A DNA stretch of 32,437 bases from Methanobacteriota archaeon (GTDB lineage: Archaea > Thermoplasmatota > Poseidoniia > Poseidoniales > Poseidoniaceae), in assembly GCA_002722695.1 (NCBI GenBank), contig PBMS01000003.1:7148-39584 (forward strand). The letters run 5' to 3'. The notes beneath the pieces are model-generated. The model saw only the letters and a list, made by a program, of their open reading frames with translations. It made no database searches and was not told where the DNA came from. Below are positions 728-5,408 of the stretch, one piece after another; positions within the stretch are counted from its first letter, which is position 1; every line of letters begins with the position of its first letter. The position numbers and the translations under genes are program-made.

Positions 728-1048
728 ATGACCGACCGCCGCATCATTTTCATCGGGAAAAAGCCCTTGCATGCTTATGTTCGAGCCGTGGTAAAAGCCA
801 TGGAGGATGGCGACCGTGAGGTCCAGTTGGTGGCCCGAGGTGCCACCATCTCCCGTGCCGTTGACGTGGCCGAGGTGTGCCGACGAAGAAACGGACACAT
901 AGCCCAGGGTCTGCCGGGAACCGTGAACATCGAAACCTTGTCCTGTGAATCCGAGGAGGTTGAGGGCGAGAACGGAATGCGAACGGTCAGTGTCCTGCGC
1001 ATCGACCTTCAGGGTGTGGGCGAGGTTCCCGCTTCTCAGGAAGAGTGA
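728..1048 (+). CDS. albA: DNA/RNA-binding protein Alba
   Basis: MTDRRIIFIGKKPLHAYVRAVVKAMEDG...VQLVARGATISRAVDVAEVCRRR is typical of Alba. ATG at 728 inside the longer ORF 521-1048. Confidence 0.9.
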   Translation: MTDRRIIFIGKKPLHAYVRAVVKAMEDGDREVQLVARGATISRAVDVAEVCRRRNGHIAQGLPGTVNIETLSCESEEVEGENGMRTVSVLRIDLQGVGEVPASQEE

Positions 1049-1407
1049 GCGGTCAGCAGCTTCAATCTGCGTTCGATTTCTGCGGCTGTTTTCTCGTAAA
1101 CGTCGTACGCCTGACCTACCGGATCATCGAGTTCCCAATCTTGGTCGAGCCTGATGGCGGGGCAGTGCACGCCGCAGCCCATGGAGATGACCATATCAAA
1201 GGATTCAGGTTCAAATTCATCGATGGATTGGGGGCGCAGGTCGTGGGTTTCGATGCCCTTGGATTGGAGAAGCGTCAGAGCGTGCGGTGCGACCTTGGCG
1301 GCGGGGTGCGTTCCAGCAGAAGCGGCATCAAACCCCATTGATTTGGCCAATCCTTCAGCCATCTGGGAGCGGCAAGAATTACCCACGCAAACAAACAGGA
1401 GCTTCAT
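1036..1407 (-). CDS. Low-molecular-weight protein tyrosine phosphatase / arsenate reductase (ArsC-type)
   Basis: MKLLFVCVGNSCRSQMAEGLAK P-loop (CxxxxCRS) and late DPVG motif. ATG at 1407. Tail overlaps the end of Alba convergently. Confidence 0.85.
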   Translation of the reverse strand: MKLLFVCVGNSCRSQMAEGLAKSMGFDAASAGTHPAAKVAPHALTLLQSKGIETHDLRPQSIDEFEPESFDMVISMGCGVHCPAIRLDQDWELDDPVGQAYDVYEKTAAEIERRLKLLTAHSS

Positions 1408-1492
1408 GTGATTTACATGACGGCCACCCTCTATGAAACCTCTCTCATGAGAAGATTGATGAGTTGACATACCTCGATGCATTGGGACGGTT

Positions 1493-1898: not shown

Positions 1899-2909
1899 AT
1901 GGCGGATTCACCCGTATCCATCAACACACCCGGCTCCGCAGGCGAGGCTCCCGCTGGCCCGTCTCCCCAAGAGCAGAAACAGATGGAGCAGGCCTACGCT
2001 CAAATGAAGCGAAAGATGGCTATGGAAGAAATCGGCCGCAACATCAAGCACAAAATCATGGTGCTTTCAGGGAAGGGTGGTGTCGGCAAATCCACCGTTT
2101 CCACCGGACTGGCTCTCTCCTTGGCTCAACAAGGCCACACCGTTGGCATCCTGGACATCGACATCACCGGTCCGAACGTGCCCAAGATGATGGGTCTTGA
2201 CGGTCGACGCCTGCACGTTGAGAACAAGCGCATTCACCCCGCACAAGGGCATCTGGGCGTGAAGGTGATCAGCATGGCCTTTTTGCTCGAGGACGAAGAC
2301 ACCCCGGTGGTCTGGCGCGGGCCCATCAAACTCGGCGCTATTCAGCAATTCATCGGAGACGTTGAGTGGGGTCAACTCGACTACCTCGTCATCGACTTCC
2401 CGCCCGGGACCTCCGATGAACCCTTGACGGTGGCGCAATCCTTGCCCGACATCGACGGCATGGTCATCGTCACTACGCCTCAACAGGTTGCGCTTCTTGA
2501 CAGCCGAAAATCCATCACCTTTTCGGAATCCCTCAAGGTCCCGGTGTTGGGTGTTGTTGAGAACATGAGCGGATTCACCGTGAACGGCACCGCTGCACCC
2601 GGAACCGAAGTGAACATTGCTGCACCAGGCGGGAAAACCCTGGCCGCAACCGCCGACGAAAGCGGAAACTTCTCCGTCACGCTTGATATTTTCAAAGAAG
2701 GCGGAGGCAAGGAAACAGCGGAGGAATTCGGTGTTCCGTTCCTTGGTGCACTTCCATTTGACCCCGGCTTTGTGCGAGGAGGTGACGACGGCGTCCATCG
2801 AATCGTTTCTGAACCCGAAGGGGCTTCTGCACGAGCCTTTGCCAAGGTCGTTGATGCCATTCAAAATCAGCTTTCAGACGGCGCAGACAACGGACTCGAA
2901 ATCATCTGA
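1899..2909 (+). CDS. Mrp/NBP35-family P-loop ATPase (Fe-S carrier family), cysteine-free variant
   Basis: LSGKGGVGKSTVSTGLALSLAQQGHTVGILDIDITGPNVPKMMG, VVWRGPIKLGAIQQF, DYLVIDFPPGTSDEPLT, GVVENMSGF, GGGKETAEEFGVPFLGALPFDP. ATG at 1899. Confidence 0.93.
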   Translation: MADSPVSINTPGSAGEAPAGPSPQEQKQMEQAYAQMKRKMAMEEIGRNIKHKIMVLSGKGGVGKSTVSTGLALSLAQQGHTVGILDIDITGPNVPKMMGLDGRRLHVENKRIHPAQGHLGVKVISMAFLLEDEDTPVVWRGPIKLGAIQQFIGDVEWGQLDYLVIDFPPGTSDEPLTVAQSLPDIDGMVIVTTPQQVALLDSRKSITFSESLKVPVLGVVENMSGFTVNGTAAPGTEVNIAAPGGKTLAATADESGNFSVTLDIFKEGGGKETAEEFGVPFLGALPFDPGFVRGGDDGVHRIVSEPEGASARAFAKVVDAIQNQLSDGADNGLEII

Positions 2910-2918
2910 GGTGCGAAT

Positions 2919-3272
2919 ATGGGAGAAGTTCTGCCCGTGTTGAAGAAGCTGGAACGGCTTCAGCAAGAAATGGTCTTGACCTACGACAACGAAGCAGATT
3001 TCATCGTTTCCTACGACGACCTTCGTCATGCCTGCCCGTGCGCAAAGTGCTCCCCACTTCGCAACGAAGACGACTCTTCAAGGGTCCTTCGTCGTCAAAT
3101 TGAGGCGCTGCCCGCAGAAAAGCCGACGGTCCGAACGGTTGGAAAATACGCCCTTGCGTTTGAATGGCAAAAGGGATGCTCGGCCGGCATTTACCGGTTT
3201 GAGCGTATTTACGACCTCGCCAATAAGCGCGACCCCGATCGAGGCAAACCCTACGTCCACGGAGCATGGTAG
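2919..3272 (+). CDS. DUF971 (gamma-butyrobetaine hydroxylase-like N-terminal) domain protein
   Basis: Starts 10 nt after the mrp stop. CPCAKC motif and ALAFEWQKGCSAGIYRFERIYDL match the DUF971 pattern (CxCxxC ... DGHxSGIYxWxYL). Confidence 0.8.
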   Translation: MGEVLPVLKKLERLQQEMVLTYDNEADFIVSYDDLRHACPCAKCSPLRNEDDSSRVLRRQIEALPAEKPTVRTVGKYALAFEWQKGCSAGIYRFERIYDLANKRDPDRGKPYVHGAW

Positions 3273-3347: not shown

Positions 3348-5408
3348 GTGCAGAGTGTTTACCTCACATGGATGATCAGCGCTCTGGCGCTTGGTGTGCT
3401 CCTTCTTCCCGTGTTCAAACCACCGTGGGCGAAGTTGTCACTTCCACCTTTTGTTGACTTTTTCCGACGCTATTGGGTCCACATTCTCATCGTCTTTGCG
3501 ATCTACAACGCCAAAGACGCTCTTGACCAAGTCGATCGTTTGTTGATGGCCAGCACCGGATTGGACATGACCCCCTACATTTGGGCGGTGGAAGGGAACC
3601 TTGTTCTTTGGGTCCAGCAGACCTTCATGGCGGACTGGCTGACCACGACGTTAACGCATTTTTACGTCGCCGGGTTCATGTTTGTGTGCTATGTTTCGGT
3701 GTTTTACTTCGCCTATTTTGACGACCGGTGGCTCGCCGACCGTGTCACACTTTCCATCGCATGGGTCTACATTCTCGCCGTGCCGTTCTATTTGTTCTTC
3801 AACGTCCGTGTCACAGGGGATACCATTCCGGAAATGCAAACCCTCGCTTACACATTGACACCAGAAATCGCAGATTGGTTCCGCCGAATCGACCCGTTCA
3901 CGAACGGCATGCCGTCACTCCACATCGGCATTCCGTTTGCGGTTTGGCTCTGTTTGACACGATTTGACGACGATCGGAGATGGAACCGGTATCGATACAC
4001 CGTGGGTGTGTTCACGCTGCTGACGGCCTTCACCATCATCTATCTTGGCATCCATTGGTTCTTGGACATCATCGGGGGCATGCTCATCGCTGGAGCGGCC
4101 GTTTCGCTGGCCGACAGAACGTCAAACACTTGGTGGAAATTTTTTGATGAGCGGACGATGAACGCCCGAATCGTTACGGTCCTGACGCGTCCCGGGCAGG
4201 CATGGTCGTGGTTTTCCTCGAAGGCCGCTTCGACGTTCAAGGCCTACCGGTCGCCATCAAGCAGGGAAACCGGCCACATCGCTCTGGCCATTCTCATCGT
4301 CGTTGCGGCCGTCATCACGTGGGACCTCACCCACCGTTCGTTGCCCGCAGGCGGAGTTGAGGCGCCCGACGCTGCCGCTTCCTCCGGGGATTGGACGGTT
4401 GCACGGGACAACCGGGAGGACGGCGTAGGGTTGGTGTTGTACGACCTTTCAGCGGACGGTTTTGAACCGTTTGAGATGGTTGTTCCCGGTCTGGATTTAA
4501 ACTCAACATGGGCGATGCAGAACGAGCGCTTGGTCGTCTCGAACGCCTCCACGCTGTTTGTGTTCGACGTGAATCAACCGGAAACTGCGATTCGTTCCGT
4601 ACCGTTGGGTCCGCACCAGCATCTCGTGCTGTGCGAGCGAGCCTCGGAAACCGTGGTCGTTTACACGGTGGACGGTCGTCTTCACGTAATGGATTTGAAA
4701 GGCAATCCGATGGACGACCCGGATGCGGAGCACACGGGCATACGCACCATGACGTGTGCCGGTTCTGAAATCGCCTACGTCGCCGACGATGCCCCGATGG
4801 AGGTCAACATCGTTCAATTGGGTGTACGTGGACAAGTCGGTTATTCGATCAACGCCACAGCACCCGTCCAGGAAGATGAAATCCTTGCCACGTGGGGAAC
4901 GCCCGTTGACATGGGCAACGCAACCATCCTCAACATGTCGTTTGATCGAGAATATCTTGCTGTGACGGTCAATGTATCAGCCACCGACCGTTTGGTTCTT
5001 TACAACCGCAGCACGGCCGAGCAATGGCTTGCTAGCAACGCAAAGTACCACGTTTCCGATCTATCCCTCGACCACGGAATTCTTGCATGGTCGGTTCGAG
5101 ACCACTACAACCCCATGATGCCACAGTCAAAGTACCTCGATCGAGAAATCTACTTCACCGATTTAGCGACAAACACCTCGCACGTGCTCACATCCGACAC
5201 GAACGACCAGTGGGGACCGCAAGTTTTGGAACATCACCTCATCTATTTCCAATCCGACGGCGAGGTCGTTCAATTCAAAATCCATGCTTGGGAGCCTGAA
5301 CTCCGACTCTACTCGAGCATCGTCCTGCAGACCGGGGTTTTGGCGGCCTTCGTGGTGGTGGCGTGGAACATGTGGCAACGCCAGAGTGAACGGCGGCTTC
5401 ATCGTTAA
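3348..5408 (+). CDS. PAP2-superfamily (Ipt1/Aur1-like) membrane phosphatase/transferase fused to a C-terminal predicted beta-propeller and terminal TM
   Basis: Multi-TM N-terminus with NGMPSLHIGIPF and LGIHWFLDIIGGML motifs, then TM helix (ALAILIVVAAVITWDL), repeated beta-strand blades, and a C-terminal TM. GTG start. Confidence 0.8.
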   Translation: MQSVYLTWMISALALGVLLLPVFKPPWAKLSLPPFVDFFRRYWVHILIVFAIYNAKDALDQVDRLLMASTGLDMTPYIWAVEGNLVLWVQQTFMADWLTTTLTHFYVAGFMFVCYVSVFYFAYFDDRWLADRVTLSIAWVYILAVPFYLFFNVRVTGDTIPEMQTLAYTLTPEIADWFRRIDPFTNGMPSLHIGIPFAVWLCLTRFDDDRRWNRYRYTVGVFTLLTAFTIIYLGIHWFLDIIGGMLIAGAAVSLADRTSNTWWKFFDERTMNARIVTVLTRPGQAWSWFSSKAASTFKAYRSPSSRETGHIALAILIVVAAVITWDLTHRSLPAGGVEAPDAAASSGDWTVARDNREDGVGLVLYDLSADGFEPFEMVVPGLDLNSTWAMQNERLVVSNASTLFVFDVNQPETAIRSVPLGPHQHLVLCERASETVVVYTVDGRLHVMDLKGNPMDDPDAEHTGIRTMTCAGSEIAYVADDAPMEVNIVQLGVRGQVGYSINATAPVQEDEILATWGTPVDMGNATILNMSFDREYLAVTVNVSATDRLVLYNRSTAEQWLASNAKYHVSDLSLDHGILAWSVRDHYNPMMPQSKYLDREIYFTDLATNTSHVLTSDTNDQWGPQVLEHHLIYFQSDGEVVQFKIHAWEPELRLYSSIVLQTGVLAAFVVVAWNMWQRQSERRLHR

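Follow-up and report, generated by a model that had tools for sequence, protein, structure and literature searches.

A four-cysteine DUF971 protein encoded beside a cysteine-free Mrp ATPase in Poseidoniales: a possible HCF101-like module in separate parts

Introduction

The N-domain of gamma-butyrobetaine hydroxylase (BBOX1) contains a zinc site of the CxCxxC type. A related domain, DUF971, is found in HCF101, which in plants serves as a scaffold and carrier of [4Fe-4S] clusters (PMC5890173, PMC7980591). The role of DUF971 in HCF101 has been described as elusive (PMC7980591). Land-plant HCF101 has replaced the DUF971 motif with D[KRQT][GS]Ax[GS] and lost its cysteines (PMC7980591), and the protein without them carries a [4Fe-4S] cluster (PMC5890173). 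The Mrp/NBP35 ATPases bind a bridging cluster through a conserved CxxC, and in MrpORP the Mrp has in addition an accessory domain that bears its own cluster (PMC6345978).

Here, we analyse a stretch of 32,437 nucleotides (the window) from a Poseidoniales archaeon, in which a gene for an Mrp is followed by a gene for a DUF971 protein (Table 1). The Poseidoniales are common ocean archaea, and their Mrp/DUF971 pair resembles the pieces of plant HCF101 set apart. In the literature searched, we found no description of this pair.

Table 1. Features of the mrp-DUF971 locus, in window coordinates
Feature	Position	Strand	Basis
Mrp/NBP35-type P-loop ATPase, 336 aa, no cysteine	1899..2909	+	PF10609; PDB relatives; AlphaFold2
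Deviant Walker A, GKGGVGKST	2070..2096	+	Sequence; invariant in alignment A3
Ig-like (Big_6-like) insert in place of the Mrp CxxC cluster loop, residues 226-262	2574..2684	+	Big_6; model
Spacer between mrp stop (2907-2909) and DUF971 start, 9 nt	2910..2918	+	Sequence; family conservation
DUF971 (GBBH-like N-terminal domain) protein, four-Cys variant, 117 aa, ATG start	2919..3272	+	PF06155; fold matches
CPCAKC, putative metal ligands C39, C41, C44	3033..3050	+	Invariant in alignment A2
C87 in KGCSAGIY, where a His ligand is usual	3177..3179	+	Alignment A2, column H87

The two proteins

The Mrp scores 302 bits against PF10609, its nearest PDB relatives are CFD1 (6g2g) and an archaeal Mrp (3kb1), and its AlphaFold2 model has a pLDDT of 86. 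A preliminary description, made from the letters of the window, had called this protein free of cysteine, and there is none in the whole open reading frame. The Walker A motif fits the GKGGhGK[ST] pattern of the Mrp/NBP35 family. The cluster CxxC of that family is absent from all 65 distinct Poseidoniales Mrp loops (0/65), and about 37 residues stand where a CPHC-type loop is usual. The window loop, taken in isolation, matches Big_6, a bacterial Ig domain (E=3.6e-7), as do 11 of 16 loops tested, and AlphaFold2 predicts four beta strands in the insert with pLDDT mostly 84-95. The predicted sheet would sit just where Mrp binds its bridging [4Fe-4S] cluster, so that the usual mode of cluster binding is presumably closed to this protein.

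On the tree, the Poseidoniales Mrp is placed among archaeal-type Mrps, and the gene was therefore probably inherited. A similar Ig-like insert occupies the same place in the Mrp of four planctomycete genomes (L259, L261, L262, L268), and a common origin of the two is rejected (AU p=8e-53 against joining them). A third case, genome G302 (L439), comes from another Thermoplasmatota family and has no DUF971 match; joining its Mrp with those of Poseidoniales is not rejected (AU p=0.29). The cluster loop has thus given way to an Ig-like sheet at least twice independently.

The DUF971 protein scores 51.1 bits with PF06155 (GBBH-like_N/DUF971), above the gathering score of 22.8 bits. The top fold matches of its AlphaFold2 model (pLDDT 75, with low confidence around the cysteine loop, residues 41-60) are the solved DUF971 structures 2l6n (E=7.8e-4), 2l6p and 3luu, along with the human BBOX1 N-domain 3o2g; for 3luu and 3o2g the match probability is 1.00. 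The preliminary description had also pointed to CPCAKC and to a cysteine in place of the usual histidine, and alignment bears this out for C39, C41, C44 and C87. In alignment A2, with 48 relatives, C87 falls in a column where His is nearly invariant, and KGCSAGIY lines up with GHNTGIF of 3luu. The CxCxxC of the Cys3His ligand set is therefore present and its histidine has become Cys87. We infer that all four cysteines coordinate a single metal in tetrahedral geometry. The source genome, in an assembly about 71% complete, contains one DUF971 and one full Mrp.

Directly after DUF971 (3348-5408), the window encodes a PAP2-type phosphatase domain with a long C-terminal part that looks beta-propeller-like by eye. 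On the other side, a gene resembling low-molecular-weight phosphotyrosine phosphatase or arsenate reductase (1036-1482, minus strand) points away from mrp and adjoins an Alba gene (about 668-1048).

Conservation of the four cysteines

The Poseidoniales consist of two families, f1, to which the window belongs (genomes of about 1.9 Mb), and f2 (about 1.4 Mb). PF06155 is present in 186 of 195 Poseidoniales genomes. In a sample of 296 genomes from the phylum Thermoplasmatota, DUF971 was found in 84, all within the class that contains the Poseidoniales and none outside it. The complete four-cysteine set occurs in every unambiguous f1 sequence (42/42, from 44 distinct ones) and in all 22 distinct f2 sequences (22/22), with Cys at the C87 position in 64/64 unambiguous sequences of the order; since it is kept so uniformly, the set is not a product of chance. 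The DUF971 domain tree rests on few columns, from which the source of the archaeal gene is not resolvable, and it groups the Poseidoniales sequences as a single set of 31 rows (SH-aLRT 99), which suggests that His was exchanged for Cys once. In the bacterial sequences that were read, there was no four-Cys DUF971 and His stood at this position in nearly all; in one set of 61 matches it was scored in 59, and the remaining two also read DGH by eye. One of the bacterial samples was gathered with a CPCA-type query and may therefore miss rare variants.

Could the pair be an assembly artefact, a frameshift or a contaminant? This is exceedingly improbable and we regard it as refuted, because mrp and DUF971 occur in well over a hundred (>100) independently assembled genomes, including the single-contig G011, with conserved reading frames.

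Linkage and fusion of mrp with DUF971

The DUF971 gene had been said to start 10 nt after mrp; the adjacency holds, and the spacer as counted is one nucleotide shorter, with the same 9 nt in most f1 relatives. Of 44 distinct f1 loci, 41 have Mrp immediately upstream of DUF971, and the remaining three are cut off by a contig end or contain ambiguous sequence. No such linkage exists in f2. There, DUF971 adjoins a transporter-like gene of about 1100 aa or other genes, and is followed by a gene of about 480 aa and then by L21e, an RNA polymerase subunit, DUF655 and KsgA (neighbours named by eye).

The separation in f2 is what one would expect if the loss of CxxC and the His-to-Cys change were unrelated products of drift, with a cluster-free role for Mrp, DUF971 as a zinc protein and an operon shared in one family only. 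We consider this explanation unlikely, considering that adjacency or fusion of the two genes recurs in distant lineages. In Acidobacteriota, Omnitrophota, SAR324, Armatimonadetes and Planctomycetota, the gene next after mrp is DUF971. Mrp-DUF971 fusions occur, among other lineages, in marine group III, Zixibacteria and Planctomycetota. As for the third domain of HCF101, stand-alone DUF59 proteins are present in 14/14 Poseidoniales genomes tested and also in 13/14 control genomes; such proteins are near-universal, and their presence therefore adds little.

Marine group III, the sister order of Poseidoniales, has a true DUF59-Mrp-DUF971 fusion (L096, L097, L106, L129-L132, L138, L140-L142). In genus g23, the fusion retains CPEC and the Cys3His set. 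In genus g24, it lacks CxxC (ENMAGFTPPGSDE), and its DUF971 has CPCAHC with the fourth ligand missing (SPGAGAGIY), which leaves three ligands only; by eye, an NfuA-like gene follows. Marine group III thus shares with Poseidoniales the presence of DUF971 and, in g24, the absence of CxxC. It differs in that its fused Mrp is of bacterial type, with a tree origin separate from that of the Poseidoniales Mrp, and in the fourth DUF971 ligand, which is His in g23, absent in g24 and Cys in Poseidoniales.

Loss of CxxC and the presence of DUF971

The Planctomycetota provide a larger comparison, with DUF971 in 85 of 151 genomes. When each genome was represented by its best Mrp (119 parsed), a CxxC-less Mrp was found in 30 genomes with DUF971 and 2 without, as against 49 with and 38 without for CxxC-bearing Mrps (Fisher P=6e-5). 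Corrected for descent, 10 of 11 planctomycete losses fall on DUF971-bearing branches, which make up 56% of branch length (P=0.017). With Thermoplasmatota added, the figure is 12 of 15 losses on 44% of the tree length (P=0.005), a count that takes in the discovery case, Poseidoniales. These enrichment P values come from quick trees and simple parsimony, and in an independent-pairs test the number of informative pairs was too small. The planctomycete loops that replace CxxC vary (L280, L388, L392, L396, L401 and others), and some losses are plain deletions (ENMTGEIFGQGG).

CxxC has also been lost where there is no DUF971, in G302 (L439), in the lineage of G278 and G305 (L467, L468) and in the planctomycete G554. 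G278 and G305 are near-complete, single-contig Thermoplasmatota genomes in which the CxxC loop of the best Mrp is deleted (ENMAGEIFGQGGG). A rule by which CxxC loss needs DUF971 is thus ruled out by L439, L467 and L468, and in view of all these counter-examples the relation is an association. The survey of co-occurrence that had been proposed for these genes gave a divided answer, in that CxxC loss is enriched with DUF971 and CxxC-less Mrps often have no four-Cys DUF971 next to them. Independent drift would fit the losses in G302, G278 and G305 and the retention of CxxC in many DUF971-bearing genomes (49 in the planctomycete count), but not the enrichment of losses on DUF971-bearing branches. 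Taken together, the comparative data tie DUF971 to Mrp and to the disappearance of its cluster motif. They also show that the Mrp, DUF59 and DUF971 parts were repeatedly split apart, joined and modified. These patterns give good support to joint action of Mrp and DUF971 and suggest a partnership at the protein level.

Zinc site or iron-sulfur cluster?

What might the four cysteines bind? One possibility is that they hold an iron-sulfur cluster and have taken over from the lost CxxC of Mrp, so that the ATPase and the cluster site would lie on two proteins. The loss of the Mrp CxxC and the gain of the fourth DUF971 cysteine are both fixed in the whole order, the losses are enriched on DUF971-bearing branches, and MrpORP shows that an Mrp can have an accessory domain that bears a cluster of its own (PMC6345978). 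We nevertheless find this reading doubtful. Cys3His DUF971s are retained in bacteria with CxxC-less Mrp, the CxxC-less marine group III fusion (SPGAGAGIY) has three ligands only, land-plant HCF101 has replaced the motif (PMC7980591) and still carries [4Fe-4S] (PMC5890173), and two Thermoplasmatota lineages lost CxxC without any DUF971.

The preliminary description had proposed that DUF971 supplies the cluster ligands missing from the ATPase. In that form the proposal is not supported, given that mrp and DUF971 are unlinked in f2, that an ordinary Cys3His DUF971 accompanies the CxxC-less Mrps of Bryobacterales and Planctomycetota, and that three Thermoplasmatota genomes of two lineages have a CxxC-less Mrp and no DUF971. 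We know of no Mrp/NBP35 system in which the ATPase and the cluster are divided between two proteins, and a carrier of that kind, with the cysteine-free Mrp as ATPase and the separate four-Cys DUF971 as cluster holder, seems improbable.

A Zn(Cys4) partner domain is the likelier assignment for DUF971 than a cluster carrier. Four points favour zinc. A zinc site is present in BBOX1, which belongs to this fold family; bacterial DUF971s paired with CxxC-less Mrp stay Cys3His; the g24 DUF971 offers no more than three ligands; and land-plant HCF101 carries [4Fe-4S] (PMC5890173) although its DUF971 motif has been replaced (PMC7980591).

A proposed split HCF101-like module

The explanation that we favour, and that we hold to be somewhat more probable than its competitors combined, is a split HCF101-like iron-sulfur module in which DUF59, the Mrp ATPase and DUF971 are separate Poseidoniales genes, with DUF971 as a dedicated partner of Mrp. 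The Cys4 site would most likely bind zinc, as in the BBOX1 N-domain. It may stabilise the small domain and give Mrp, or the targets of Mrp, a surface on which to dock. Mrp would probably act as an ATP-driven clamp or docking platform, together with DUF971 and another cluster donor. A split HCF101-like arrangement had been suggested at the outset, and it has gained support from adjacency or fusion in several lineages, the marine group III fusion, the stand-alone DUF59 proteins and the enrichment of CxxC losses.

If DUF971 does allow Mrp to work without cluster ligands of its own, the view that a bridging cluster is what defines Mrp/NBP35 ATPases needs revision. If DUF971 binds zinc only, the CxxC-less Mrps must have a task other than carrying clusters.

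Comparison with known systems

The window DUF971 has the same Pfam domain and fold as the N-domain of BBOX1, but that domain is part of a dioxygenase and has His as its fourth ligand, while the Poseidoniales DUF971 has no attached dioxygenase. The bacterial mrp-DUF971 pairs and fusions (Acidobacteriota, Omnitrophota, SAR324, Planctomycetota) have the same order, with DUF971 after mrp or fused to it; they differ in that the DUF971s read are Cys3His and that their Mrp usually retains CxxC.

The same three domain families are found in HCF101 (DUF59-ParA-DUF971) of plastids and mitochondria and in the HCF101-like proteins of PVC bacteria, and the CxCxxC present in the DUF971 of most HCF101 lineages is common to Poseidoniales. 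The differences are the separate genes, the archaeal-type Mrp with its Ig-like insert and the cysteine as fourth DUF971 ligand. HCF101 is a single polypeptide; in the window, Mrp and DUF971 are separate reading frames, and DUF59 lies elsewhere in the genome. As judged from these genes, the Poseidoniales set would work like an HCF101 taken apart, although by fusion it is not a member of that family.
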